A program made the position numbers and the translations under genes. The notes under the pieces were generated by a model that saw only the letters and a list, made by a program, of their open reading frames with translations, made no database searches and was not told the origin of the DNA. From the NCBI RefSeq assembly GCF_003326795.1, contig NZ_JPWI01000001.1, positions 620,001 to 684,000 of the forward strand: a stretch of DNA of 64,000 nt, in the 5' to 3' direction. How positions within the stretch are numbered: position 1 is the stretch's first letter; every line of letters begins with the position of its first letter. The stretch is from Thalassospira profundimaris. Lineage in GTDB: Bacteria; Pseudomonadota; Alphaproteobacteria; Rhodospirillales; Thalassospiraceae. Shown here one piece after another: positions 2,142-16,287 of the stretch.

Positions 2142-3086
2142 TCAAATTCGAAACGGGTTGCCTGCTGGAATGTGTCGTTCCCATTGGATCGTTTCATGGA
2201 CGCGCTCGAATCCAAATCGTTCAAGCGCCTTCCATGATGCGGCATTACGTGCATCAACATAGGCCAAAACCGGAAGATTCCAGCGTTTGGCAGCATCGTT
2301 AATCAGATGACGTGATACAAGGTCGGTAACGCCGCTGCCCCAATGCTTGCGCAAGGTCGCAAGACGCGGCGAAAGAACATGCGAGCCGAGATTCAAGCTG
2401 ACGACATTGGCAACGATCTCATCACCAAGCATGCCGATGAAAAACACATTCGCACCACCTTCATAAAGGGCACGGATGCGTTCCGGTGCGGTCGGTACCG
2501 TTGTTTCCCAACTGGCGAAAGCACGGTTATGGATGTCGGTGAGTTGTTCAAAGATATCGGGCGTTTTCTTGATAAAATCATCATCAAGAATGATGGATGT
2601 GTATCCCTTGTCCAGGGCGCGTTGCGCATGGGGAAACTGATCGGGTTCTACCGGTCCTGCCGGTCGAATATATCGGTAGTTGCTGGCTTTTTTTTCAAAA
2701 CCAAGTGCCTGAAGGTCCTGTTCGACAAACGCTACATCTTCAGGCGGGATCAGTTTGATGATTGTCGATTGTTCGTAGGTGTCCTCGACAGATCGCAAGG
2801 CGTCGCAAGCCGCATCAGTCAGGGTGCGGGGATCCTTTTGCAGCACATCAACCGAAATCAGAATATTCGGGGTGTCGGTCTTGTCATTGTTGCGGACAAT
2901 CGAGACGGCCGCCGTCATTTGTCCCGCATCATCTTCAAAGAAGTAATCTGTGCCTTCACGCAGGACGACGGCCTCATAATCAATAGTGGCCATGTAATTC
3001 CGGACTTCTTCCGTGCTGACCGTCCGGCGCAGATCGGCAAAGCGTTTTACATTGTCCGGAGAGACTGGAAGAAGCGTACGGGTCAC
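2142..3086 (-). CDS. GNAT-family acyltransferase-like protein, paralogue 1
   Basis: 314 residues. The C-terminal third has a GNAT fold signature: an acyl-CoA pyrophosphate loop of the Q/RxxGxG type, here KHWGSG (~residue 248), and the closing motif NAASWKALERFGF (~285). The N-terminal ~150 residues are not recognised but are conserved in the paralogues at 3527 and 7026. The start is GTG, chosen because it aligns the protein end to end with its paralogues. Known GNAT enzymes transfer acyl groups from acyl-CoA to amines; some act as tailoring or immunity enzymes in RiPP clusters. Linkage to lanM is 5 kb away, so a role in peptide modification or self-protection is inference. The loop arginine of the other two copies is Lys here. 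Confidence 0.75.
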   Translation of the reverse strand: MTRTLLPVSPDNVKRFADLRRTVSTEEVRNYMATIDYEAVVLREGTDYFFEDDAGQMTAAVSIVRNNDKTDTPNILISVDVLQKDPRTLTDAACDALRSVEDTYEQSTIIKLIPPEDVAFVEQDLQALGFEKKASNYRYIRPAGPVEPDQFPHAQRALDKGYTSIILDDDFIKKTPDIFEQLTDIHNRAFASWETTVPTAPERIRALYEGGANVFFIGMLGDEIVANVVSLNLGSHVLSPRLATLRKHWGSGVTDLVSRHLINDAAKRWNLPVLAYVDARNAASWKALERFGFERVHETIQWERHIPAGNPFRI

Positions 3087-3225: not shown

Positions 3226-3525
3226 CAGGTAGCCCGGATGTCTTCAAAAAATAGCCTGATCTGGGTCAGCAATGCCTGTGATTTGTCGCTCAGGCTGTTG
3301 GATATGGTGAGAATATCGGTTGTTGCATGACGCGCATCCTCTGCTGATTGAAGCAGGCCGACTACATTGCGGGCGATCTCGCCAGTTGCAGCATTCCCAC
3401 CCGCAACCTTGTTACGTTTTTTATCCGCGATGACAGATGTTCGATTGTGCCCAAGGCTCTTTGGGTACTGTCCTGAAGGCCGTTGCTATGGCTGGCAAGG
3501 TTTTTGACCTCGACGGTAACAACGG
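3226..3525 (-). pseudogene. Decayed 3' fragment of a methyl-accepting chemotaxis protein
   Basis: About 300 bp that align base by base with the last ~400 bp of the intact receptor gene at 5082-6767, in the same orientation. Long shared runs include GATTTGTCGCTCAGGCTGTT and ATCCGCGATGACAGATGTTC. The fragment has several deletions (about 42 and 24 bp among them) that destroy the reading frame, and no receptor N-terminus. It abuts the stop codon of the GNAT gene at 3527, just as the intact receptor follows the GNAT gene at 7026. The pair therefore looks like a duplicated GNAT-receptor module whose receptor half has been lost. Confidence 0.8.
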
Positions 3526-3526
3526 T

Positions 3527-4468
3527 TCAGACAGTCAGTCGTTCTCCTGCTAGGACCTTGCGCTCCCAGACGCAATATTCGGCGACCCTGGACAGTCCGA
3601 ACCGTTCAAGTGCTTTCCAGGATGCTGCATTTGTGGCTTCGGCATATCCAACGATGGGTAGGTTCCAGTGTTCCGCAACAAACTCGGCGGTGTGTCGGCA
3701 CATCAGATCAACCGATCCTGTCCCCCAGTGACGACGCAGGCTGTAATATTGGGGGGATAGAACATAACTCCCCAGATTGGTGAGCATAATGCTTCCTGTT
3801 ACTTCATCCCCAAGTTTGGCGATGATTGTCTTGTTGGCCTCGGTGTCATAACTTTTGCGCATCCGTTCCGGTGTTGTTGGGCGCACGAGATCGCAACCGG
3901 AAAAGGCACGATTATAAATATCGGCAAGCTTTTCAAAGATATCGGGATCAGATGCGACATAATCGTCGTCTATCAGGACTGATCGGTATCCACGCCTTGT
4001 CGCGCGGTCGGCATGAGGAAACTCGCCGGGCTGAGGTGGTCCCGGTTTTCTTTCATAGCGAAAGCTCGCCACGTTTTCGCAAAACCCTATTTCCATCATA
4101 TCCGTTTTTGGAAAGGCTGATCCTATCGGGTCGTAAACGCGATAGAGCGTGTCAGATTCGACAATATCTTGTGCAGTCGCGGCAAGAACTTTGCACAGCA
4201 TTCTGAACTCTGTCTTTGGTGTCTTGTCTCTGGCTTCGACCGAAATCATGATGCAACGGTCGTTAACGAGGGCGTTTCCGTTCCGGATTGAAACAGCAGC
4301 CTGCATCACGCCATCGTCATCAAGAAGAGCATATTCCTCGCCTTTATCAAGAATGGCCGCAGCCAAATCAGTTGTTTGGAACTGCTGCTGCTCTTCTTCG
4401 CCGGCGATTTCGCGACGTAACGTGACATAAGGCGTTATATTGTCTTTCGTGACAGCAACAAACTGCAT
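3527..4468 (-). CDS. GNAT-family acyltransferase-like protein, paralogue 2
   Basis: 313 residues if started at the ATG at 4468, which aligns with paralogue 3 (MQFVAVTKDNI versus MYLVPITKENI). A longer frame to 4534 adds 22 residues without homology. The C-terminal GNAT portion has RRHWGTG (~residue 243) as acyl-CoA loop and NAASWKALERFGL (~283). The N-terminal half is the same unrecognised domain as in the other two copies. The substrate is unknown. It is divergent from precursor gene P5 at 4799 with a 330-bp gap, which places it in the lanthipeptide block; a tailoring or immunity role is inferred from that context and from known GNAT enzymes in RiPP pathways, not from the sequence alone. Confidence 0.78.
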   Translation of the reverse strand: MQFVAVTKDNITPYVTLRREIAGEEEQQQFQTTDLAAAILDKGEEYALLDDDGVMQAAVSIRNGNALVNDRCIMISVEARDKTPKTEFRMLCKVLAATAQDIVESDTLYRVYDPIGSAFPKTDMMEIGFCENVASFRYERKPGPPQPGEFPHADRATRRGYRSVLIDDDYVASDPDIFEKLADIYNRAFSGCDLVRPTTPERMRKSYDTEANKTIIAKLGDEVTGSIMLTNLGSYVLSPQYYSLRRHWGTGSVDLMCRHTAEFVAEHWNLPIVGYAEATNAASWKALERFGLSRVAEYCVWERKVLAGERLTV

Positions 4469-4798
4469 GATGCTTGGTTTTTCCAGTTCCTGTTTACAAC
4501 AAACTTGCAGGATATCTGGGCGGTAATCTGCCAAAAGGTCAAGGACAGCACGATCAGGAAATACCGTTTCGGAAGGTCGTTTGTCATAATGTTTGTCGGG
4601 GTAAATGATGCTTTCCGTTGTTGCACAACAGATCGGTGCCCATCACGAATCACAGTATAAGGCGGACGTCAGTTCGTTACGGTGATGTGAGTATTTATGA
4701 TTTCTCTGTGCTCTTTACTTATCAATCATTAATTATCAAAATTGACCAGTTATCCATCAATTGCGGCACTCTCACCGCGTTTATTAGGGATTGAACAG

Positions 4799-4966
4799 AT
4801 GAAAAACGTAACGTCTTTGGAGCCTGAGAAATTGGCGGGATGGCAGGCATCAGGTGGTGCCAAGTCACTTGAGGATACTTCTTCTCGTGGGGATCAAGAC
4901 GATATGCAGGATTATGAAATTTCTGCAGCGCTTCCAACCCGTGTACCGAGTTGCTTTCACCCTTAA
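4799..4966 (+). CDS. Lanthipeptide precursor P5 (single-unit, isolated)
   Basis: 55 residues, starting at the ATG preceded by TAGGGA. Short, but it has every mark of the precursor family at 11353-13660: L12, W15 and G19-G20-A21 in the leader, and one C-terminal unit, octad EISAALPT (40-47) then Cys52. The tail SAALPTRVPSCF resembles SAMLTRSPQTCY of P3. It would give one Thr47-Cys52 ring (x4). It lies over 3 kb upstream of lanM, between a GNAT gene and the receptor, and ends 52 bp before a two-way terminator. Lysines occur only in the leader (2, 11, 22). Unlike P1-P4, no clear promoter with matching spacing is seen: TTGACC at 4742 lacks a good -10. It may be a reduced or ancestral member. Confidence 0.75.
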   Translation: MKNVTSLEPEKLAGWQASGGAKSLEDTSSRGDQDDMQDYEISAALPTRVPSCFHP

Positions 4967-5018
4967 TCCGTGCGAGCTCAGGGACAGTTCGGACGGTATT
5001 GACTTCTGATTACAGCAG

Positions 5019-5048
5019 AAAAGCGGTCTGGATTTTCAGACCGCTTTT
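5019..5048. terminator. Bidirectional terminator between P5 and the chemoreceptor gene
   Basis: AAAAGCGGTCTG / CAGACCGCTTTT with a 6-base loop; A and T tracts on either side make it usable on both strands. It serves P5 (plus) and the receptor at 5082 (minus). Confidence 0.85.
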
Positions 5049-5081
5049 CATATTAAGCCGGTTTAATGCCTTCACAGGTGA

Positions 5082-6767
5082 TCAGGCTGCCCTGATGTCT
5101 TCAAGGAACTGCTTGATTTGAACCAGAAGCGTTTGTGATTTGTCGCTCAGGCTGTTGGATGCGGTAAGAACATCGGTCGATGCATGACGCTCATCCTCTG
5201 CTGATTGACGCAGGCCGTCCACGTTGATGGCAACTTCCTTGGTACCAGATGCGGCCTCGGAAACGTTGCGGGCAATTTCGCCGGTCGCAGCATCCTGCTG
5301 GCTTACGGCAGCAGCAATCCCGCCCGCAACTTCATTGAGTTCTTTCATCCGCGATGACAGATGTTCGATTGCGCCCAAGGCACCCTGGGTGCTGTCCTGA
5401 ATGCCATTGATATGACCGGCAATGTCTTCGGTTGCACGGGTTGTCTGGTTCGCAAGGTTTTTGACCTCGGCGGCGACCACTGCAAAGCCTTTGCCGGCTT
5501 CACCCGCGCGTGCTGCTTCTATGGTGGCGTTCAGGGCCAGCAGGTTGGTCTGTTCAGCAATTGATTGAATCAGTTCGACGACTTCACCGATTTTGTCCGA
5601 TGCACTGGCCAGTTCGGCAAAAATGGCGCTGGCGTCATCGGCCTCGTTCGCACCGGACTGGGCAATATCGGAACTGCGCGCAACCTGGATGGTGATTTCA
5701 TCAATCGCGGCGGCAAGCTGTTGGGCAGCCGACGCCACGGTATCAACATTGGTTGCGGCTTCTTCGGTTGCGGCGGCAACATTGGCTGCCTGAGCCGTGG
5801 TCTGATCGGACTGTGCGGCCATGCTGGTGGCTGTGCTGCGCAGCTGATCAAGCGCGGCATTCACTGTGGTCAGGTTGCTTTCAACTTCGTGTTCAAACAG
5901 CGCAATCCGGCTATCGACATTTTTGGCCCGAGCGAGTTGGGCTGCGTTTGCTGCATCCTGTTGCTTCTGCAGGCGGTCGGCTTCTTCACGGTTGGCGCGG
6001 AATACTTCAAGTGCGCGGGCAAGATCCCCAATCTCGTCCTTGCGTTCGATGGCGTTGTTTTCAACTGACAAGTCACCATCGGCCAGACGTGACAGGGCTG
6101 CAGTGATGTTGCGCATTGGCTCGGTCGTACTGCGTTCAACCGCAAAACCAAGGCCACCAATGACGATCATCATCGCGACCAGCGTAAGGATATCGGTCTG
6201 GGCCCGTGACCAGAATGCGGCTTCGACATCATCGGTGTAGATGCCCGCTGCGACAACAAGGTCCCAACCATCAACTTTTTTGGCAAAGGCCAGCTTGGGT
6301 TCGTTGTTTTTGGTGCTTGGATGCGGCCAGACATAGGAAACAAAGCCACCATCCGGGTTTTTGGCGGCTTTGGCAAGGTCGGCAACCGGTGTTGCGCCCG
6401 TCGGGTCCTTGACTGTCCCCGCACTTTTCCCGGCAAGTTTCGGATTGATCGGATGCATGACCATCGTGCCATCAAGATCGGTGACAAATACGTAATTGTC
6501 GCCGTCAAATCGCTGGGCAGAGATGATCTCAAGGGCGCGTGTGCGGGCTTCGTCGTCTGAAAGCTCGCCAGATTTTGCGCGCTTGGCGAAATCTTCAAGA
6601 ATACTGGCCGACTGATCCACTGTGTAGCGCAGTGTGACCTGTCGGTCGCCGAGCATGGTACCATGCAAGGACATCAGATTAATGACCGCCATTACGACCA
6701 GTGCGATGGCAACCAGTATAATTACACCGCGCAACTTCCACGCGAACGAATAATCAGACAACTTCAT
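5082..6767 (-). CDS. Methyl-accepting chemotaxis protein with Cache sensor
   Basis: 561 residues from the ATG at 6767 (MKLSDYSF). Domains: TM1 (~residues 13-33); a periplasmic single-Cache region with the typical [15 protein letters not shown] stretch (~105-119); TM2 (~190-210); HAMP (~212-265, [15 protein letters not shown]); and a long cytoplasmic signalling domain with the hairpin tip [20 protein letters not shown] (~410-430). It detects a small periplasmic ligand, often a carboxylate in this Cache class, and controls CheA. It follows the GNAT gene at 7026 with a 258-bp gap; a broken copy of its 3' end lies behind the GNAT gene at 3527. Whether it is functionally tied to the peptide system is unknown. 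Confidence 0.92.
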
Positions 6768-7025
6768 TTGGCACCTATTCCAATGGCGATGTGTCGCATT
6801 TCTGGTGAAATGCACGGAACAAAATTGAAAAGTTGCAGGTTATTTCGCGGATTCGGGGAATGGTTGCACTGATCTATGCCAAATACTTAAAATAAAAATT
6901 ATTAAAGTGAGGAAAAAGAAGATCACCTTTCAAGCCTGCGAAAATCCTTGATTCTGGCGATATGAAAGGTCTTGTTTCCGGGATGGAGAAGGGAAAAATT
7001 GCTATTTCCCGGGTCGTTCAGACGA

Positions 7026-7967
7026 TCAAATCTTGAAACGTTCACCGGCTGCAACGACCCGTTCCCACACCATATATTGTTCAACCCGTGTCAGGCCAAA
7101 GCGTTCAAGTGCCTTCCATGACGCGGCATTGTTTACTTCGGCATAGCCAATGATCGGAACATTCCACCGTTTCGCAACATACTCGGCAAGATGGCGACAC
7201 ATCAGGTCAACCGATCCCGTACCCCAATGACGGCGCAGACAGCAATATTGCGGTGAAAGCACCGAATTTCCCATATGGGTCAAGGTAATACAGCCAGTGA
7301 CTTCATCGCCAAGCTTGGCGATGATCATGCCGTTATTTTCCTTGTTGTAGTTGGTTTCGAATCGCTCTGCGGTGGTTTGGTTGACCGAAGCCCGGTTCTC
7401 GAAAGCCCGGTTGAAAATGGCCGCAAGGGTTTCGAAAATATCGGGATGCTTTTTGATATAGGCATCATCAAGCAGGATCGTCTCATAGCCTTTTTCGACT
7501 GCCCGATCTGTATGGGGAAACTCGCCAGCGCGCGGGGCGCCCGGGGCACGTTCATATCGGAAACTTCCGGGAACTTCAGCAAATCCCCAGTTTTCCATAT
7601 CGGCTTTAACATACACGGTTTCGGGCGGGTTATAGATGCGATAGCGGGTGTCGTGACTGGCAAGGCGGCCGTTTTCTTTTTCCAAAACCTGATGGAGACA
7701 TTCGGTCAGTTTCCGAGAATCCTTTTCGGCAATCTCGATCGAAAACAGTACCAGAAGACTATCTCCGGGGCCCGGTTTTCGCGAGATGATGACCGATGCA
7801 TGGATCCGTCCGCTTTCGTCCTGCAAGGCGTATTCATTGCCATTGGCTAAAATGACAGCTGCCAAATCGATACTGGCGAAATAGTTCCTTTGTTCCTCAT
7901 CCGAGATTGCAAGGCGGAACGCGATATAGCGTTCAATGTTTTCTTTTGTGATCGGAACCAAGTACAT
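7026..7967 (-). CDS. GNAT-family acyltransferase-like protein, paralogue 3
   Basis: 313 residues, start MYLVPITKENI. It has the same architecture as the genes at 2142 and 3527: an unrecognised N-terminal ~150 residues, then a GNAT region with acyl-CoA loop RRHWGTG (~243) and NAASWKALERFGL (~285). It is divergent from lanM with an 85-bp gap between start codons, so the two probably share a control region; this is the best positional evidence linking the GNAT family to lanthipeptide maturation. Known comparators are RiPP-tailoring GNATs such as those acylating Lys/Orn side chains in selidamides and the N-terminal acyltransferase of goadvionin. Function here is inference; self-immunity by acetylation is the main alternative. 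Confidence 0.8.
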   Translation of the reverse strand: MYLVPITKENIERYIAFRLAISDEEQRNYFASIDLAAVILANGNEYALQDESGRIHASVIISRKPGPGDSLLVLFSIEIAEKDSRKLTECLHQVLEKENGRLASHDTRYRIYNPPETVYVKADMENWGFAEVPGSFRYERAPGAPRAGEFPHTDRAVEKGYETILLDDAYIKKHPDIFETLAAIFNRAFENRASVNQTTAERFETNYNKENNGMIIAKLGDEVTGCITLTHMGNSVLSPQYCCLRRHWGTGSVDLMCRHLAEYVAKRWNVPIIGYAEVNNAASWKALERFGLTRVEQYMVWERVVAAGERFKI

Positions 7968-8052
7968 GTTTCACAAAACTTTTCTTGCGGGTCATTTGGA
8001 CTTAAGCTTGAACTATCAGGGCGTTAAATCGCGTAAAGGTCAAGGGGAACTG

Positions 8053-11000
8053 ATGGAAACCGATCCGTTTTGGACCACAATCGTTGCACGGGCGGCAACG
8101 ATTGATGAAAGGTTGTCGGGAAAATACGTTCCGGTTCCTGCAGACAATTCGATGACGGACGGTTCGTCAGTCACGACAGATCAAACTCAGGCTGAATATC
8201 TGAAAAGATGGTGTGAATTTGCCAGCAATGGTGACCATGATCTGTTTACACGCAGGCTTGCGCGCGATGGGCTGAGTGAACGTGATGTTACACCGTTTCT
8301 GGGCAATGTTCGTCTAAGGGACGGCGAAGCGTTACCAGATTGGGTTCCGACGGCAATTTGGTTTCTCGATGCAATGATGGCAGGCGGGCAGGGCACGGAT
8401 ACAGAATGCCCAAGCGATATCGCTGAAACAGTACCATTTGCTGATCTGATCTGGCCTGCGGTGGTGCAAGCGCAAAGAATGCTTGGTGACCGGGCACCAA
8501 GTCCCCTGACATTACAGGCACAGGATGACCTGACCCTCGGGCTTGTCAGTCGTCTGTCGAAATTTGCCGAAGGTGCCTTTTTCGAAAGTTTCACAAGCTA
8601 TCGTCAGGCAGTCGGTATCGCACCCGATCAGGCGGCGGGAACCGGCGTATATGGTGCATTCAAAACGGCGTTATGCAGTGGTCCGTTGCGTAACCTGATT
8701 GCGGCGCGTCCGGTTCTGATCCGGATTCTGGCAACCGTGACGGATCACTGGATCGGGGCAACGCGCGAATTCCTTGAACGGCTTGAAAACGATCTTCCTG
8801 CATTGGCCGGACAATTCCCTGAGCTGGCGGATGCCCGGAAGGTTGCCAAAATTACGGCGGGTATTTCTGATCCGCATAATCATGGTCGTACGGTTCTTAT
8901 CCTGACCTTCGAAAATGATGCCAAAATTGTCTATAAGCCCCGCCCGGTTGACGCAGAATGCGCATGGAAGGAGCTGTCAGACTGGTTTGAAAAGGCCGGT
9001 TCCGATATTCGTCTTTGCGCCCCGAAGACCTGGGCGCGCGACGGGTATGGCTGGATGGGCTTTGTCAAAGCCAATGCCGATCTTTCACAGGATCAGGGAT
9101 CGGGTTTCTATCGGGCGGCCGGGCAATTACTGGCATTGATGTACTGTCTTAAGGGCAGTGACATGCATCATGAAAATTTCCTGATTGCGGATGGGCGCCC
9201 GGTTGTTATTGACCTTGAAACCCTGTTTCAGCCGGAACTGCGGTTGTTTTACGGGGCCGATCACGCCTTGCACGCCAAGGAACTGGCACAACATCGCCTT
9301 GATGGTGGCGTGAATGCGGTCGGCCTGTTACCCAAACGTAAAAATATTGCGGGCCACTGGATTGACGATGGCGGACTGGCGGTGGCGCAAACATGCATGG
9401 TCAAAGTTCCCACCCTGCGTCACATCAATCAGGATCAGATGGTCCTTGATCAGGTCGAACGTGAAGAATTGCTTTCGGGGATCGCACTGACCATTGGTGG
9501 CAAAGCCCCCGATATAGCCGACTTCCTTGACGATGTTTTGTCGGGTTTTGATGATGCGGTTGCCTTTTTGAGTGCTCACAAGGACGAACTGGTTGCCAGT
9601 GATGGTCCGCTTGCCGCTTTTGCCGGGGCAACAATCCGTCATGTCTTGCGCCCGACAGCCTATTATCAGGAGCTTGAACGGGCATCGCGCCAGCCACAAA
9701 ACCAGCAGGACGGGTTTGTCTGGAGCCTGAATTTCGAACGGCTGTGTCGCAAGGCGCGCTGGGATCTGGAAAATTATCCGGGATGGGCATTGCTTGGGGC
9801 TGAACGAACAGCTCTGGCCCGTCTGGACGTTCCGCTATTTACCGGAAAAACCGATCAGGATGGTATCTGGGCTGATGGCCGATTTCTGACCGATCAACTG
9901 ACGCAACGGTCGGTTTTGCCAACCATCGAAACGCGTATTGATCTGGTGACCGGCAATGCTGCGCAGGAACGGGCAATTATTCGGCAATCTTTCCTGGCAA
10001 CCTCACAAGCTTTCCTGCCATCGCGCCGTCCCTGGCAAAATGACAAGACGGTCGAGAACATCAAGGATGTGGCCCGAACCAAGGCATTTCAAATTGCCGA
10101 TATTGTGGCATCTCAGGCCATCATGATGGATGGAAGTGCCAGCTGGATAACGGCTGATATTACCGGTGATGGCAAGGGCCTTGAAGCACGGGTCATGGAT
10201 GAGGGGCTCTATGGCGGGACAGCGGGACAGGCACTGTTTTTTGCTGAATGTTACGGTGTTGATCCTGTGGGGAAATGGCGCGATCTGGCCGTGGCGACAC
10301 TGGAAGCCCCGCGTCAAATGGCCTTGGGAAATGCCAGTACAATGCCAAGGCCGGTCACGGCAATCGGCGGATTCGAAGGTGTTGCCGGACTTGTTTATGT
10401 TCTGACGCGATGTGCGGATCTTCTTGAAATGCCGGACCTGCTTGAAGACGCGGTTCGACTATGTGCACGGCTTGATGATCAGGCAATTGCATCAGACAAG
10501 GCGTTGGATGTGATTAGTGGCTCGGCCGGGGCTATCCTTGTTTTGTTGGCACTTTATGATGCGACGGGGAATTCCGGGGTGCTTGAACGTGCTGTCCGGT
10601 GTGGCCGGCATTTCCCCGAAAATCCGACGATGTGGAAAAGCGTTTCATCAACCACACTTGCGGGGATGTCGCATGGGGCTGCGGGCGTCGTTTATGCTCT
10701 TTTGAAACTTTATCAGGCGACAGGCGACAAAGCTTTCCTTGATCTTGCCAACAGTGGCTTGGCCTATGAAAGAGGGTTGTTTGATCCTGACCTGAAAGGC
10801 TGGCCGGATCTTCGGGATGATGCAAATCGGGTTGATCCGGTGCAATGGTGCCATGGTGCAGTTGGCATCGGTTTTGCCAGAATGGCGACCTTGCATATCC
10901 TTGATGATCCGATGATCCGGGCTGAAATTGATATGGCGATTGCTGCGACATTGTCGGTACCCGACGGTGGGCGCGATAATCTGTGTTGTGGCCATGCCGG

Positions 11001-11238
11001 ACGTTTTTCCATGCTGGCCTATGCAATGGATATGGGATTGGGCCCCGATAATCTTGAGACGGTGTTTAATCAACGTCTGTTGGCATGGATTTCAAGGCTT
11101 GATAGCGGGCAGATCGGATTGGCAGCCAGCGATGTCATGCTTCAGCACGGTCTGATGCAGGGTCTTTCGGGGATCGGACAGGCTTTGCTGGAAATTGGTT
11201 CACCGCCAAAGGTCAGGCCGGTTCTTCTGCTTGCATGA
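8053..11238 (+). CDS. lanM: Class II lanthipeptide synthetase LanM, ProcM-like zinc site
   Basis: 1,061 residues from ATG 8053 (METDPFW), preceded by AAGGGGAAC; an upstream in-frame start adds 39 residues without family character. The N-terminal dehydratase half is kinase-like: K295 in KIVYKPRP, and D370/H372/N375 in SDMHHENF with D387 in VIDLETL. It phosphorylates and eliminates Ser/Thr to Dha/Dhb. The C-terminal cyclase half begins ~718 (GLYGGTAG), with H874 in GMSHGAAG and zinc ligands C933 (WCHG), C978 and C979 (LCCGHAG). The usual Cys-Cys-His set is here Cys-Cys-Cys, the CCG signature of ProcM-like enzymes, which process many different precursors. It is followed at 114 bp by the first of four precursor genes. 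No LanT-type peptidase/exporter is adjacent. Confidence 0.95.
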   Translation: METDPFWTTIVARAATIDERLSGKYVPVPADNSMTDGSSVTTDQTQAEYLKRWCEFASNGDHDLFTRRLARDGLSERDVTPFLGNVRLRDGEALPDWVPTAIWFLDAMMAGGQGTDTECPSDIAETVPFADLIWPAVVQAQRMLGDRAPSPLTLQAQDDLTLGLVSRLSKFAEGAFFESFTSYRQAVGIAPDQAAGTGVYGAFKTALCSGPLRNLIAARPVLIRILATVTDHWIGATREFLERLENDLPALAGQFPELADARKVAKITAGISDPHNHGRTVLILTFENDAKIVYKPRPVDAECAWKELSDWFEKAGSDIRLCAPKTWARDGYGWMGFVKANADLSQDQGSGFYRAAGQLLALMYCLKGSDMHHENFLIADGRPVVIDLETLFQPELRLFYGADHALHAKELAQHRLDGGVNAVGLLPKRKNIAGHWIDDGGLAVAQTCMVKVPTLRHINQDQMVLDQVEREELLSGIALTIGGKAPDIADFLDDVLSGFDDAVAFLSAHKDELVASDGPLAAFAGATIRHVLRPTAYYQELERASRQPQNQQDGFVWSLNFERLCRKARWDLENYPGWALLGAERTALARLDVPLFTGKTDQDGIWADGRFLTDQLTQRSVLPTIETRIDLVTGNAAQERAIIRQSFLATSQAFLPSRRPWQNDKTVENIKDVARTKAFQIADIVASQAIMMDGSASWITADITGDGKGLEARVMDEGLYGGTAGQALFFAECYGVDPVGKWRDLAVATLEAPRQMALGNASTMPRPVTAIGGFEGVAGLVYVLTRCADLLEMPDLLEDAVRLCARLDDQAIASDKALDVISGSAGAILVLLALYDATGNSGVLERAVRCGRHFPENPTMWKSVSSTTLAGMSHGAAGVVYALLKLYQATGDKAFLDLANSGLAYERGLFDPDLKGWPDLRDDANRVDPVQWCHGAVGIGFARMATLHILDDPMIRAEIDMAIAATLSVPDGGRDNLCCGHAGRFSMLAYAMDMGLGPDNLETVFNQRLLAWISRLDSGQIGLAASDVMLQHGLMQGLSGIGQALLEIGSPPKVRPVLLLA

Positions 11239-11281
11239 TGTTCCCTTTGGGTGATGTGTATAGATGCAATTAAATCTTTAA

Positions 11282-11310
11282 TTGACATTGGGCTGCGGCG
11301 GGTAGCTAAT
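11282..11310 (+). promoter_or_regulatory. Promoter of precursor gene P1
   Basis: TTGACA, 17-bp spacer, GCTAAT; 42 bp from the -10 to the ATG. The same spacing recurs at P2, P3 and P4, which raises confidence above a lone match. Confidence 0.7.
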
Positions 11311-11352
11311 TCAATGGGCTGACTTTATTGAATTTCTACGGGAGAACGGTCA

Positions 11353-11682
11353 ATGACCATGAACCAAGTTTCGACGGGCACGTCACTTGATGTCTGGGCA
11401 CAGTCAGGTGGTGCTTTCAACGGTGCGATGACAGATATTTCCGGCTCAACAGACGCAACCCTTGCAAGTGCGCAGCCAAGCTTCGCCCGGGTTTGTGCAC
11501 CGGCAACCGAGACAGAATTAAATGCAGCTATGGTTACCGTTGGTTTTACATGTGGTGGCTGGGAACCTGAACTGAACGCAGCAGGACCTTCGATTGCTGT
11601 GTGTCGCGGCGGTGGCGGTTGGGAGCCCGAGCTGCAGTCGGCAGCATATACCCATTCGATTCAGTGCCGTGGCGGCTGGTAA
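11353..11682 (+). CDS. Lanthipeptide precursor P1 (four units)
   Basis: 109 residues, RBS GGGAGAA. Leader signature: L12, W15, AQSGGA at 16-21. Four units follow: TLASAQPS then C48; ELNAAMVT then C67; ELNAAGPS then C84; ELQSAAYT then C105. Units 2-4 are joined by GGWEPE linkers rich in Gly and Trp. Each unit offers one Ser/Thr at octad position 8 and one Cys 4-5 residues on, so LanM would make one (methyl)lanthionine per unit, four rings in all. There is no Lys in the whole protein. The leader is not of the Nif11 or nitrile-hydratase type that I would recognise. The gene has its own promoter and terminator. That the product is processed into one multi-ring peptide or several single-ring peptides cannot be told from sequence. 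Confidence 0.85.
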   Translation: MTMNQVSTGTSLDVWAQSGGAFNGAMTDISGSTDATLASAQPSFARVCAPATETELNAAMVTVGFTCGGWEPELNAAGPSIAVCRGGGGWEPELQSAAYTHSIQCRGGW

Positions 11683-11783
11683 CTAACAGCAGCTGGCAGA
11701 AACTGGCACAGGTGACTTCGTTACTTTTGGTGCCATTCCTGCAGGATACCTGAGAGCGGACCCGTGGTCTGAAATTGCGTTTA

Positions 11784-11815
11784 AAACGGGCTCTTCGTTT
11801 GAGCCCGTTTTTTGT
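11784..11815 (+). terminator. Terminator of P1
   Basis: AAACGGGCTC / GAGCCCGTTT stem with a 7-base loop and a T run, 100 bp after the P1 stop. The ~290 bp from here to P2 hold the P2 promoter and otherwise nothing supportable. Confidence 0.85.
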
Positions 11816-12032
11816 TCCAAGTTTCAAAACCATATCGTGACATCAAGCCTGAAACTGGGATTTTTCCGCATGAAGCCCCCTGGTTACGGGCGGTGCTTTC
11901 GGCGGAAAGATTTCAGAAAAGGCAGGCAGATTGATCTGCCCTTCTATTTAGGTTCCCTCTGCAAGTTGCTGATTTATAAATTTTTCGTATTGGTTTTGGT
12001 GTTTGTCCGGAGTGTGAGAGTTAAATCCCCGG

Positions 12033-12061
12033 TTGACTTTGTTCGGTTGCAAATCTCTAAT
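12033..12061 (+). promoter_or_regulatory. Promoter of precursor gene P2
   Basis: TTGACT, 17-bp spacer, TCTAAT; 42 bp from the -10 to the ATG at 12104, matching P1. Confidence 0.7.
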
Positions 12062-12103
12062 TTCCCTCGTTGTGTTTAACGAGTTCCTTTGGGAGAACAT
12101 AAA

Positions 12104-12376
12104 ATGACGCAGATGAATATTGCTGCAACAACGTCCCTTGATGCCTGGGCACAATCGGGTGGTGCTATTGTCGGCATGACGGAAACAGCGATTGCCACCG
12201 ACGAGGGATTGTATGCTGTGGCCTATACCGCTGATGCAATTTTCTCGCACGAACCGGCTCTGGAAATGAATGCTGCCGCCATTACAATTGGCACAGTTTG
12301 TTTGGGTCTGGGTGCAGAACTGAGTTCGGCTGCGCTGACTATGGGTATTCGCATAGCTTGTTCCATCGAACGTTAG
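12104..12376 (+). CDS. Lanthipeptide precursor P2 (two complete units, one without Cys)
   Basis: 90 residues from the ATG after GGGAGAAC; the upstream in-frame TTG overlaps the RBS and is rejected. Leader: L12, D13, W15, AQSGGAI at 16-22, nearly identical to P1. Units: GLYAVAYT (35-42) lacks the expected Cys, with Ser48 in its place; EMNAAAIT (54-61) then C66; ELSSAALT (72-79) then C86. Ring spans would be x4 and x6. The first unit keeps the octad register but not the ring-forming thiol, so it is either decayed or gives only a dehydrated residue. No Lys. Monocistronic by its own promoter and terminator. Function as LanM substrate is inferred from position, leader and unit structure. Confidence 0.83.
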   Translation: MTQMNIAATTSLDAWAQSGGAIVGMTETAIATDEGLYAVAYTADAIFSHEPALEMNAAAITIGTVCLGLGAELSSAALTMGIRIACSIER

Positions 12377-12514
12377 GCTACGACATTTACGGTTGGTAGT
12401 TGGCCTTCTTGCAGGTGTTGAGTCGAGCTTCAAGCTGTTGCAATCCCTGTCGGTGGTCTTGGGCCCGGCACATAGGGCTGGTAGTCAGCGCCGGACAGTT
12501 TTGAAATGATAGAG

Positions 12515-12544
12515 AAGGCGGGTCACTTTGAGCCCGCCTTTTTC
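12515..12544 (+). terminator. Terminator of P2
   Basis: AAGGCGGG / CCCGCCTT stem with a T run, 138 bp after the P2 stop. The sequence between stop and stem shows no further unit or gene. Confidence 0.75.
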
Positions 12545-12662
12545 CATTCAGGATGTGTTGACTGTTGCATCGATCCCCGTGATCAGGAAACCATCCCGTG
12601 TGCTGTTGCGTCACAAAGTTGGGGATATTGTCAGTTTTATCACCAGAAGTTGCCGCAACCAT

Positions 12663-12691
12663 TTGACTAATTTCCGGAATTGCCATTCAAT
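12663..12691 (+). promoter_or_regulatory. Promoter of precursor gene P3
   Basis: TTGACT, 17-bp spacer, TTCAAT; 42 bp from the -10 to the ATG at 12734. The -10 is identical to that of P4. Confidence 0.65.
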
Positions 12692-12733
12692 CAAAATGCA
12701 CGTCTGCTTTCGAAAAAAACAGGGAACACGAGT

Positions 12734-13063
12734 ATGAGCCGTATGGAAAACGTGACGACAGGTCCGATGGATATCTGGGCCCAAACCGGAGGTGCGATTG
12801 CGACGCCGGTTGCCAATGCCGATGATCATCAGGGCCAAGAAATGCAGTCAGCTATGCTGACGCGCTCGCCTCAGACCTGCTACAGCATCGATCAGGAAAT
12901 GGCGAATGGACAATATTCCGGTCATTTTCCGTTCTGTATCGAGCATGAAATTCAGGCTGCCCAGTATTCGCAGCAATTCCCGGTTTGCATTGATCAGGGT
13001 CAGGAATTGCAGTCTGCCATGCTGACGCGCTCACCACAAACCTGTTACAGCATTGGTCAGTAA
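12734..13063 (+). CDS. Lanthipeptide precursor P3 (four units, two with identical cores)
   Basis: 109 residues from the ATG after AGGGAA, which puts M12, W15 and GGA 19-21 in family register; an upstream in-frame ATG at 12680 breaks it. Four units: EMQSAMLT then C49; EMANGQYS then C68; EIQAAQYS then C85; ELQSAMLT then C104, all with five residues between Ser/Thr and Cys. Units 1 and 4 share the run QSAMLTRSPQTCYSI, while units 2 and 3 resemble each other (QYS..FP.C), giving an A-B-B'-A arrangement. No Lys. Many residues near the rings are Gln, Tyr, Phe and Pro, unlike the Gly-rich P1 and P4, so products of the same enzyme would differ strongly in chemistry. Confidence 0.85.
   Translation: MSRMENVTTGPMDIWAQTGGAIATPVANADDHQGQEMQSAMLTRSPQTCYSIDQEMANGQYSGHFPFCIEHEIQAAQYSQQFPVCIDQGQELQSAMLTRSPQTCYSIGQ
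12839..13054 (+). repeat. Internal core repeats of P3 (units 1 and 4)
   Basis: Codons at 12839-12889 and 13004-13054 encode the same 15-residue core. Seven of the codons differ at synonymous positions and none at non-synonymous positions within the core; the flanking residues differ (M/L before, D/G after). Confidence 0.9.
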
Positions 13064-13197
13064 CAGCTTCGGCAAGCTACACAGTTGCATTTAACGGCAA
13101 TCGCACTCCTTTGATAAAGGCGTGCGTAGTGGCTATGAGATGTGCCACGCATGAAGAATTCGGGGTTCGCAATACCCACGGTTACATGTCCGGTATC

Positions 13198-13229
13198 AGG
13201 AAGGCAGGTCCGCAATGGCCTGCCTTCCT
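13198..13229 (+). terminator. Stem-loop after P3, likely terminator
   Basis: AGGAAGGCAGG / CCTGCCTTCCT with a 10-base loop, 134 bp after the P3 stop; the T run is interrupted. The 300-bp gap between P3 and P4 otherwise holds only the P4 promoter. Confidence 0.6.
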
Positions 13230-13308
13230 TCCTATTGATGGGATACAACTTCAGGCGATAACCAGTTTGTTGAAAATGAAACAAATTCTCTGGTTTGATC
13301 TGTACTCG

Positions 13309-13337
13309 TTGACAATTTGTATTTGTTAATATTCAAT
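13309..13337 (+). promoter_or_regulatory. Promoter of precursor gene P4
   Basis: TTGACA, 17-bp spacer, TTCAAT; 41 bp from the -10 to the ATG at 13379. Confidence 0.7.
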
Positions 13338-13378
13338 CCTGAGGCGATTTTTATTCACAATATTCAGGGATAGTGAAC

Positions 13379-13660
13379 ATGGAACGGATGGAAGATGTGA
13401 GCCGGAGCTCGATGGCGGCATGGATGGCCCACGGTGGGGCAATTGCTCTGTCCATGGAGGCGGGGATAAACGAAGATTCCGGCATGGAAGCAGCGGCATT
13501 CACCTATGGCGGCGGGGCTTGCGGCGTGTCGAATGGTGATTCAGATATCCTTGCGGCTGCCGGATCAAATAGTATGGGACTGTGTCACGAAGTACCTCGT
13601 TCTGATCTTGAAATCAGTGCGGCTGCAGGGTCTTTGGGAATGGGACTTCGTTGCGGATAA
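13379..13660 (+). CDS. Lanthipeptide precursor P4 (three units)
   Basis: 93 residues from the ATG after CAGGGA; an in-frame GTG two codons earlier is less likely because it shifts the leader register. Leader: M12, W15, HGGAI at 18-22, the most divergent of the downstream four (A13 for D, M16-A17 for AQ). Units: GMEAAAFT (35-42) then C48; DILAAAGS (56-63) then C69; EISAAAGS (78-85) then C92. The segments between Ser/Thr and Cys are rich in Gly and Met (YGGGA, NSMGL, LGMGLR). No Lys; the chain ends one residue after the last Cys. It has its own promoter and shares a two-way terminator with ftsK. Confidence 0.83.
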   Translation: MERMEDVSRSSMAAWMAHGGAIALSMEAGINEDSGMEAAAFTYGGGACGVSNGDSDILAAAGSNSMGLCHEVPRSDLEISAAAGSLGMGLRCG

Positions 13661-13764
13661 CCATTAACTGATCGGGAAATAAGGGCCGCGACTTGTTCGG
13701 GGGTGCAAATTTTCTGGTCACTTAACCGGTTTCGTATATTGAATATCGGAAGATACACATTATT

Positions 13765-13795
13765 AAAAGGCAGGCTGAATTTCAGCCTGCCTTTT
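13765..13795. terminator. Bidirectional terminator between P4 and ftsK
   Basis: AAAAGGCAGGCTGAA / TTCAGCCTGCCTTTT, near-perfect and with A/T tracts on both sides. It closes P4 (plus) and the aminotransferase-ftsK unit (minus), and marks the right border of the lanthipeptide block. Confidence 0.88.
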
Positions 13796-13833
13796 ATTGT
13801 TGGTGCGTCCATGGAAAACGGGATTTATCCCGA

Positions 13834-16287
13834 TCAATATTCGTAAGGACTGCCATCCATATTTTCCATCAGCACTTCACGCTTGCCGACATGGTTGGCG
13901 GCGGAAACCACACCGTTTTCTTCCATCTGTTCGATGATGCGCGCGGCACGGTTATAGCCGATTGAAAGTTTGCGCTGGATGAAGCTTGTAGATGCCTTTT
14001 TCTCGCGCAGGACAATGCCGACGGCCTGATTATAAAGATCATCATCCGATCCGCCGCCTGCACCTGCATTGCCGCCACCCATATAGGCGGCCATCGGGTC
14101 TTCTTCGGGTTCTTCGGTGACGGTTTCAAGATAGGACGGGTCGCCCTGATCGCGCAGATGCTTGACGATGCTTTCGACTTCCTCGTCCGAGACGAACGGG
14201 CCGTGGACACGTTGCAAACGACCACCCTGACCCATGTAAAGCATATCCCCCTGACCCAGAAGCTGTTCGGCACCCATTTCACCAAGGATGGTGCGCGAGT
14301 CAATTTTCGAGGTCACGGAATAGGAAATACGTGTCGGGAAGTTGGCCTTGATCGTACCGGTGATCACGTCAACCGACGGGCGCTGGGTAGCCATAATAAG
14401 ATGCAGACCCGCCGCACGGGCCATCTGTGCCAGACGCTGGATCGATGCTTCGACATCCTTGCCTGCCACCAGCATCAGGTCGGCCATCTCGTCCACGATG
14501 ATGACGATGAATGGTAACGGCTCCATCGGCAATTCCTGATCTTCAAAGATCGGTTTGCCGGTTTCCGGGTCAAAGCCGGTCTGAACACGACGGGTAAGCT
14601 GCTCGCCCTTGGCGGAGGCTTCCTTGATGCGCTTGTTATAGCCTGCAATGTTACGCACGCCGACCTGGCTCATGGCACGATACCGGTCTTCCATTTCGCG
14701 CACCGCCCATTTCAGGGCAACAACTGCCTTGTGCGGATCGGTCACAACCGGGGTCAGAAGATGCGGGATGCCGTCATAAATCGACAGTTCGAGCATCTTC
14801 GGATCAATCATGATGAAGCGGCATTCTTCGGGCTTCAGGCGATAGAGCAATGACAGGATCATTGCGTTCACACCGACCGACTTACCCGAGCCGGTCGTAC
14901 CGGCAATCAGCAAGTGCGGCATCTTGGCAAGATCGGCAATCACCGGGGTGCCGCCAATATCCTTGCCAAGGCTCATATTCAGTTTGCCGGTATTCTTTTC
15001 AAAATCGCTGGAGGCCAGGATTTCATGCAGATGTACGGTTTCGCGCCGTGCATTTGGGAGCTCAATGCCAATAACGTTGCGCCCGGGCACTACGGCAACA
15101 CGGGCGGCAATCGCACTCATGGAGCGGGCGATATCATCGGCAAGGCCAATGACGCGTGAAGACTTAACACCGGCTGCCGGTTCAAGCTCGTAGAGTGTTA
15201 CAACCGGGCCCGGGCGAACCTGAACGATCTCGCCCTTTACGCCGAAATCCTGAAGCACAGTTTCAAGCAGACGGGCATTCTGTGCCAAGGCTTCCTGATC
15301 GATCTGATTGGCATCGGTGGGATCGGGTTCACCAAGCAGATCAAGCGGCGGGAAACGATATTCGTCCGATCCCAGATCAAAGGATGCCTGACGTTGGGCT
15401 GCGGCCTTCGGGCTCGGCTGCAGCTTGGCTGCCGGGGCGGCGACAATGTGAACAGGTGGTTCGTGATCGATACCATCATCATCGTCAAACGCGTCGTCTC
15501 CGTCATCGTCCGGTTCCATGTTCGGCTCGGAACGACGGGTGGAGATAACAGAACCCAGTTTGGATTTCGATTTATCAAGCGACGGTTCCTGCCGTGATCC
15601 CGGTGCACGTTTGGCAACCGGTTCATCGTTGCTGCCGGTCGGAATGACGGCACGGATACCCGCAATCACCTTGCCTGCGGTAAAGGACAGAGCACCGCCC
15701 AGACGAGCCCAATCCGAAAGCGAATAGGCCATGCAAAAGATGGTCAGGGCCATGCCAAGAAGCATTGACGCCAAGGCAATGATTGCGCGTGCACCCGGTA
15801 CGCCGATCATGGCAAATCCGGTCTGCAGTTTCGCAAGAAGAAGATCACCGGCAAAACCGCCAAGTCCCACGGTCAGCGGCCAGTGCATGCCCGGATGAAT
15901 AGCCGCCGCCGAAATCGCCACCAAAAGCAAGGCCAACGGCAATACCAGAAACCGTACCCACATCCAGCTAAACGGTTTGACCGCAATCAGACGCAAGCCC
16001 CAACCAAGCATCAGAACACTCAGAAGGGCCGACGCCAGACCAAGGGTGCGCAACATCAGATCCGCGCCATAAGCGCCAATAACACCCAGCGGGTTGAAAA
16101 TGGGGCCGCGGTCGGTTGCATGATTAAAGGACGGATCGCCCGGATGGAAGCCAATCAGCATGATGAACAGGGCAATGGCCAGAAACACCAGACCAAGGCC
16201 GCAAATCCGCAAACCGCTGCGCTTTAGCCAGGTCACAAGACTGCCGGGCATGAAGGCGGTTCCAAGAATGTTCGACTGACTGCTCAT
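13834..16287 (-). CDS. ftsK: DNA translocase FtsK
   Basis: 817 residues. Four to five membrane segments in the first ~200 residues anchor it at the septum. An acidic, low-complexity linker (~230-300) follows, then the RecA-like motor with Walker A GTTGSGKS (~465) and Walker [14 protein letters not shown] (~595). A C-terminal winged-helix gamma domain (~745-810) reads KOPS sequences on DNA. It pumps chromosome termini toward dif and activates XerCD during division. The length is typical of alphaproteobacterial FtsK, shorter than that of E. coli because of the short linker. The aminotransferase gene at 16348 lies only 60 bp upstream on the same strand, so the two probably form one transcript. 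Confidence 0.97.

Follow-up and report, generated by a model that had tools for sequence, protein, structure and literature searches.

Between a thioredoxin gene (trx) and ftsK, both assigned by Pfam, a 64,000-nucleotide stretch of the Thalassospira profundimaris genome (hereafter the window: contig NZ_JPWI01000001.1, positions 620,001 to 684,000, with positions below counted from its first base) carries a gene for a class II lanthipeptide synthetase (LanM), five small precursor genes, three paralogous genes for tandem-GNAT acyltransferases and a chemotaxis receptor gene. Together with its relatives in other genomes, the locus encodes a class II lanthipeptide pathway in which three components are conserved: a CCG-type LanM, precursors with a short LxxWxxxGGA leader, and a tandem GNAT. 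The synthetase and all five precursors are encoded on the forward strand and the three GNATs on the opposite strand. The LanM and precursor genes are as follows.

8053..11238, + strand: LanM, class II synthetase (dehydratase and LanC-like cyclase), 1061 amino acids from the ATG used
4799..4966, + strand: precursor P0 (55 amino acids), one unit at 4916-4954; head-to-head with the GNAT gene at 3527-4474
11353..11682, + strand: precursor PA (109 amino acids), four units at 11458-11496, 11515-11553, 11569-11604 and 11629-11667
12104..12376, + strand: precursor PB (90 amino acids), two Cys-closed units at 12263-12301 and 12317-12361, and an octad without Cys at 12206-12229
12734..13063, + strand: precursor PC (109 amino acids), four units at 12839-12880, 12896-12937, 12947-12988 and 13004-13045
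13379..13660, + strand: precursor PD (93 amino acids), three units at 13481-13522, 13544-13585 and 13610-13654

The synthetase matched TIGR03897 at 661.6 bits (cut-off 304), and Pfam recognised DUF4135 (3.2e-94) and LANC_like (1.5e-50) domains within it. The motifs KPR, [AG]SDxHxEN (D-x-H-x-x-N), DLE, SHG, QWCHG and CCG, whose residues we take to have the catalytic and zinc-binding roles of their counterparts in CylM, occurred in all ten clade members aligned, an alignment that left out an interrupted copy from T. lucentensis. Three features of a class II pathway, namely DUF4135 and LanC-like domains, intact motifs, and precursors with a leader followed by a Ser/Thr-Cys core, were each found here.

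Each precursor in the window begins with a 21-residue leader ending in W-x-x-[STH]-G-G-A, followed by repeated units in which an octad, x-[LIM]-x-x-[AGV]-x-x-[ST], precedes a Cys. The initial annotation had counted 15 such octads in the five precursors, with a Cys 3-6 residues further on in 14 of them, and the recount gave the same figures (1 + 4 + 3 + 4 + 3 octads). This strict unit closes on all 14 of the window's precursor Cys, and the five precursors contain no others, while shuffling the five cores 2000 times with their composition preserved left a mean of 0.33 Cys explained and a maximum of four; as the units are paralogous, this result measures their regularity rather than 14 independent events. 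When the Cys was not required, the octad matched 16 times after the leaders (the extra match overlapping a PA unit) and twice inside them, so that the octad alone is unspecific and the octad with its Cys is specific.

Orthologous LanM genes were present in seven of the 29 genomes of the family, the window genome included, all from the genus Thalassospira, and the five intact relatives shared 49-70% identity with the window copy. Both trx and ftsK flank six of these loci, and the seventh (L011) has trx on a contig that ends before ftsK. A GNAT gene adjoins LanM in all seven and is present in exactly those seven of the 29 genomes, and precursors of the same build occur in the other six loci. The initial annotation had proposed conservation in homologous loci as a check, and octads and Cys are indeed kept in those six genomes, where the strict pattern accounts for 34 of 48 Cys in 17 precursors and a looser pattern for 44 of 48. 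A further Thalassospira locus (L017, from genome G010) holds a distant LanM-like gene of 24% identity, with neither the pathway GNAT nor precursors.

Wider searches extended the system to two other families. Among 297 genomes of the order, nine had a GNAT match at E <= 1e-10, including G038 of a second family, in which G062 matched weakly; both encode one LanM of about 43% identity to that of the window, with a GNAT-like gene opposite. A GNAT profile run on 385 genomes of the class gave, among the matches listed (at most five candidates per genome), three at E <= 1e-12 and led to two genomes of a third family (G329 and G457), in which LanM stands between two GNAT genes with precursors beside them. 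On 398 genomes of the phylum, the matches listed (again at most five candidates per genome) reached E <= 1e-20 only in two Thalassospira. Overall, precursors were found in two of five second-family genomes and GNATs in two of three third-family genomes. A LanM search of genome contigs, which was a non-exhaustive scan with short patterns, returned six loci from Thalassospira and a distant fragment from a planctomycete.

In their distribution across genomes, the precursors follow the synthetase. In 34 genomes, a profile of the leader and first unit scored E < 1e-3 only in the 11 genomes that carry the LanM clade; nine of these were sources of the profile, and G062 and G457 are independent of it. 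The other 23 genomes searched comprised 22 Thalassospira without a LanM orthologue and G554, whose LanM status was not searched, and a lone match at E 0.042, interrupted by a stop, came from one further genome. None of the precursor matches in G038 (ten) and G062 (five) shares a contig with LanM. The initial annotation had assumed a single LanM, and G000 (the window genome) indeed has one match, as have G038 and G062, so that in each of these genomes that enzyme must serve all precursors. In G329 and G457, a second, weaker LanM match occurs elsewhere in the genome (G329:C35 and G457:C4; 404.3 and 389.9 bits, with neighbours). Altogether, 41 precursors were gathered from the 11 genomes and three families (23 from Thalassospira, 15 from the second family and three from the third), a number that represents the yield of leader pattern and profile rather than a complete census. 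Searches of 11 of the 41 against Pfam and NCBIfam gave no convincing match, with none to Nif11 or NHLP, and for eight precursors examined at E up to 5 only chance-level hits to unrelated families appeared (0.059-0.69).

Across these families the unit recurs in modified form, and the octad as first described applies to part of it only. The initial annotation had taken the strict octad as the repeat, which holds for every Cys of the window precursors and for 49 of 64 in the genus (window included), but for only 15 of 61 in the second family and one of 11 in the third; the corresponding shuffle means were 1.49, 1.03 and 0.19, and the third-family value is not above chance, being reached in 87 of 500 shuffles. 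In contrast, a more general unit, [LIMV]-x5-[ST]-x(2-7)-C, accounts for 59 of 64, 50 of 61 and 7 of 11 Cys (shuffle means 8.96, 5.59 and 1.39, with the observed number reached by none of 500 shuffles), or 116 of 136 overall and 57 of 72 outside the genus (overall shuffle mean 15.9, maximum 30 in 500). As judged by eye, an acidic residue mostly lies within three positions before the hydrophobic residue of the unit, and in an alignment of 21 first units (A5) this residue is almost invariably D. The motif reads E-[LIM]-x-x-A in most Thalassospira units and DDGLxA in the second family, where the whole unit is DDGLxAxxx[ST]x(2-7)C.

The position of the Ser/Thr was examined in the second family by anchoring units on the acidic-G-L motif alone, blind to Ser/Thr and Cys. 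In the 55 units obtained, of which 53 are distinct and some are counterparts in the two genomes, D occupied position -3 in 49, G position -1 in 53, L position 0 in 54 and Ala position +2 in 49, and Ser/Thr stood at +6 in 51 (entropy 1.39 bits), while the remaining positions from +3 to +10 were variable (2.95-3.69 bits). The spacing from Ser/Thr to Cys ranges from 3 to 8 positions, so that it is the Ser/Thr that is constrained rather than the size of the ring. Class II leaders are known to carry a motif with E/D at position -8 and L/M at -7 (PMC7268733), and we infer from the sequence likeness that a small leader-like motif precedes each ring. Repeated cores with a flanking motif each constitute a multicore architecture, in which the motif would serve recognition.

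Whole cassettes have been gained and lost under purifying selection. In comparison with L011, the window precursors differ by entire units (PA four versus three, PC four versus seven, PD three versus six), and in two pairs of second-family counterparts four units stand against two. The last two cassettes of the precursor at L091:7468-7722 recur, slightly altered, at the end of another at L096:1052-1405, behind a different leader. In seven counterpart precursor pairs, picked by eye, the ratio of nonsynonymous to synonymous differences (pN/pS) was below 1 in every case (0.24-0.59), with LanM at 0.30. Thalassospira precursors contain one (four genes), two (10), three (5), four (2), six (1) or seven (1) Cys-closed units, those of the second family two to six, and those of the third family one, two or four. 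One-unit precursors account for 5 of the 41, one of them apparently damaged, which argues that a single cassette is enough and hence for separate cores. L011 also encodes, at 16062-16259, a precursor of the same family with an unrelated C-terminus after one unit, possibly a frameshift.

The third part of the pathway, a tandem-GNAT acyltransferase linked as tightly as LanM, had been overlooked in the initial annotation. The window holds three copies.

7026..7967, - strand: GNAT3, head-to-head with LanM across a gap of 86 bases; Acetyltransf_3 match at 2.2e-07
3527..4474, - strand: GNAT2, head-to-head with P0 across a gap of 325 bases; just outside the interval 4799..13660
2142..3086, - strand: GNAT1, following another GNAT gene, with a chemotaxis-receptor remnant in front

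Of 20 GNAT genes, each oriented against the nearest of the LanM, precursor and GNAT genes, 11 are head-to-head with LanM (in 11 of 11 loci) and eight with a precursor, with gaps of 86-353 bases, and GNAT1 is the sole copy that is neither. Because of this head-to-head linkage in 19 of 20 copies, the GNAT probably belongs to the pathway. The protein has about 313 residues, and the AlphaFold2 model of GNAT3 (mean predicted local distance difference test score, pLDDT, 91.9) matched tandem GNATs in Foldseek, which listed MAB_4324, VipF, FemX and mycothiol synthase. An acyl-CoA-like loop, R-[RK]-H-W-G-[ST]-G, is present in the C-terminal half of 15 of the 19 copies aligned, one copy from L054 lying outside that alignment. 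Acylation of Lys, as in selidamides, is unsupported as a general rule, as Lys is missing from everything behind the leader in 27 of the 41 precursors; Arg is frequent. Since Lys is not general, and by analogy with the microviridins discussed below, a first guess at the GNAT substrate would be the freed N-terminus.

These observations suggest a pathway in which each precursor would act as an array of one to seven cassettes, each with an acidic-hydrophobic motif, then a Ser/Thr in fixed register and then a Cys. The leader, and probably the leader-like motif before each ring as well, would direct LanM, which would dehydrate the registered Ser/Thr and add the Cys, so that every cassette gains one (methyl)lanthionine. 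Removal of the leader, and probably separation of the cassettes, would fall to a protease whose gene lies elsewhere, other than a C39 peptidase in the window genome, and the GNAT would acylate a freed amine. That LanM makes one ring per cassette is likely, while the whole model with separate cores is favoured with only modest confidence, as a proposal somewhat better than even.

C39-type LanT proteins commonly, though not universally, cut the leader in class II pathways. Peptidase_C39 matches occur, one or two each, in five of the 11 LanM genomes (G001, G006, G022, G329 and G457), and a C39 peptidase was rejected as the cutting enzyme in the window genome, where none was found at E <= 1e-8. 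The octads were also considered as C39 double-Gly cut sites, to which, by eye, the acidic residue at -8, the hydrophobic residue at -7 and Ala at -4 would fit; Gly at -2 is not conserved, and the idea was rejected. In the trx-ftsK intervals of L011-L016, other open reading frames of at least 100 amino acids were limited to a DcuC carrier, a lyase and a LysR regulator in L012, along with three frames that overlap these genes, and two overlapping short frames in L016. Near the second-family LanM of L043 (1175-10606; L044 by eye), an AcrB-type transporter, a class III aminotransferase and a phosphopantetheinyl transferase are encoded, which are possibly linked to export or acyl supply; annotation by family search covered loci other than L041, L042, L053, L054 and L091-L098.

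Several observations weigh against the proposed pathway. One window octad (12206-12229, in PB) has no Cys, the strict octad explains no more than 16 of the 72 Cys found beyond the genus, and 20 of 136 Cys fall outside even the general unit. Many cassettes contain extra Ser/Thr, so the choice of ring is not unique. In the genus loci neither a protease nor an exporter of peptides was recognised, and no Peptidase_C39 was found at E <= 1e-8 in six of the 11 LanM genomes (G000, G002, G005, G025, G038 and G062); cutting and export would therefore depend on other enzymes. The H-W-G-x-G loop is altered in four of the 19 aligned GNATs (R-R-H-W-G-K-V in L043 and L044, R-A-H-W-R-S-G in L053 and L054), including both precursor-facing copies of the third family. 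The LanM of T. lucentensis is interrupted (L015, 7952-11114: two overlapping frames and one TGA). Finally, the sequence offers no proof that the cassettes are cut apart. In the T. lucentensis locus, two precursors and the GNAT are still open despite the broken LanM, which may reflect decay or a sequencing error.

The most serious alternative to released cores is that the cassettes stay joined as one long peptide of small, non-overlapping rings with acidic linkers and a freely variable number of rings. The absence of a recognised protease at the locus and of C39 in the window genome fits such a chain, as do linkers of varying length with no invariant cut site seen after the Cys. However, a joined chain accounts less well for single-unit precursors and for unit numbers that run from one to seven and differ even between counterparts in close relatives; in addition, the second-family cores vary while the motif before each is conserved, as in multicore ribosomally synthesised and post-translationally modified peptides (RiPPs) that are cut apart. 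A joined product is consequently regarded as rather unlikely, if a real contender. Some doubt also attaches to the acyltransferase, which, instead of tailoring the product, could serve self-protection by inactivating the peptide within the producing cell. Linkage and co-occurrence would suit this role equally well, and Foldseek also returned PamZ, which we take to be a self-resistance acetyltransferase, but GNAT copies face individual precursors (8 of 20) as well as LanM (11 of 20), and diverged copies in several genomes better fit substrate-specific tailoring, so that immunity seems an unlikely role.

Far less probable is that the units are not lanthionine rings at all, with LanM modifying few residues, the Cys serving in disulfides or metal binding and the repeats forming a binding array. 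The ring chemistry is predicted, and several Ser/Thr are available in a unit, which leaves room for this explanation; it sits poorly, however, with the single Cys of each unit and with a Ser/Thr kept in register amid variable sequence, and with co-occurrence with a motif-intact LanM, and is considered very improbable. That the repeats are chance or decaying sequence without function is barely credible: the octad lacking Cys and the damaged appearance of one L011 precursor and of the T. lucentensis LanM would agree with decay, but the shuffle tests, pN/pS below 1 in all seven pairs and conservation across three families speak against it.

The remaining features of the window concern transcription and the receptor. 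A dedicated hairpin search behind the five precursor genes, made without a shuffled control, found a terminator-like hairpin after each, the last of which also appeared in a consensus scan that returned 20 terminator-like sites in total against a shuffled mean of 11.5 (standard deviation 3.2).

5021..5046, + strand: terminator-like hairpin after P0 (dedicated search, not in the consensus scan)
11784..11810, + strand: terminator-like hairpin after PA (dedicated search, not in the consensus scan)
12515..12540, + strand: terminator-like hairpin after PB (dedicated search, not in the consensus scan)
13199..13228, + strand: terminator-like hairpin after PC (dedicated search, not in the consensus scan)
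13764..13796, + strand: terminator-like hairpin after PD (dedicated search and consensus scan)
5082-6815, - strand: chemotaxis receptor, inside the interval 4799..13660

With a hairpin after every precursor gene, each precursor may form its own transcription unit. Between two of the GNAT genes, a remnant of the 3' part of a receptor gene (3231-3556, - strand) is 57% and 45% identical to the intact-strand neighbour, the receptor at 5082-6815, with its frames broken, and L014 has a similar extra receptor fragment at 12398-12583.

Several known systems resemble the pathway in part. Prochlorosin precursors carry one core each, and ProcM, like the LanM here, has a CCG-type zinc site. The prochlorosins of marine cyanobacteria share with the present system one promiscuous LanM (ProcM or SyncM) that serves many precursors, scattered or in tandem, and are assigned to the Nif11 family (PMC10783134). 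In contrast, the precursors described here have a short LxxWxxxGGA leader, no Nif11 match (11 of 41 scanned), up to seven cassettes per gene and an associated GNAT. The pairing of a GNAT with a class II synthetase is itself already known, with other leaders, from selidamides and nostolysamides; the nostolysamide GNAT is predicted to be tandem and one selidamide comes from a marine alphaproteobacterium, but in these pathways the leaders are of the Nif11/NHLP type and the side chains of Lys or ornithine are acylated (PMC13060382, PMC9505594). By description, the GNATs are also set apart, as the C-terminal half contains the acyl-CoA-like loop here, whereas in NpuN the loop is reported from the N-terminal domain.

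Multicore precursors are familiar from other RiPPs. The multicore microviridins (AMdnA, with three cores) likewise have a single cyclase acting on multiple cores, together with an N-acetyltransferase and a protease that has not been identified, and their released cores are N-acetylated (PMC5934393). They differ in that ATP-grasp enzymes form lactones and lactams, and the likeness is one of description, not sequence. In cyanobactins, variable cores lie between conserved recognition motifs. These are also multicore (PMC5934393), but are made by heterocyclase and macrocyclase chemistry without a LanM. For lanthipeptides, a July 2026 paper describes multicore precursors as unreported, and a literature search recognised no paper describing the present family, most subscription literature being outside its reach. 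The proposal that these are the first multicore lanthipeptides, built from autonomous and shuffleable cassettes in which a leader-like E-L or D-D-G-L motif sets the dehydration site at a fixed distance and one ring each is formed, released and acylated by a dedicated GNAT as a monocycle, is put forward tentatively, with the balance of probability against it in this full form.

If the cassettes are modified as predicted, they would provide a natural and easily edited format in which one gene and one enzyme yield many small thioether rings, and the arrays permit a direct test of whether LanM is addressed by a motif at every ring or by the N-terminal leader only. The presence of a linked acyltransferase points to acylated monocycles, which were not encountered as products of such arrays in the literature consulted. 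Should the model hold, interchangeable one-ring cassettes would represent a new way of building lanthionine peptides, in which tandem arrays act as a modular library assembled ring by ring.

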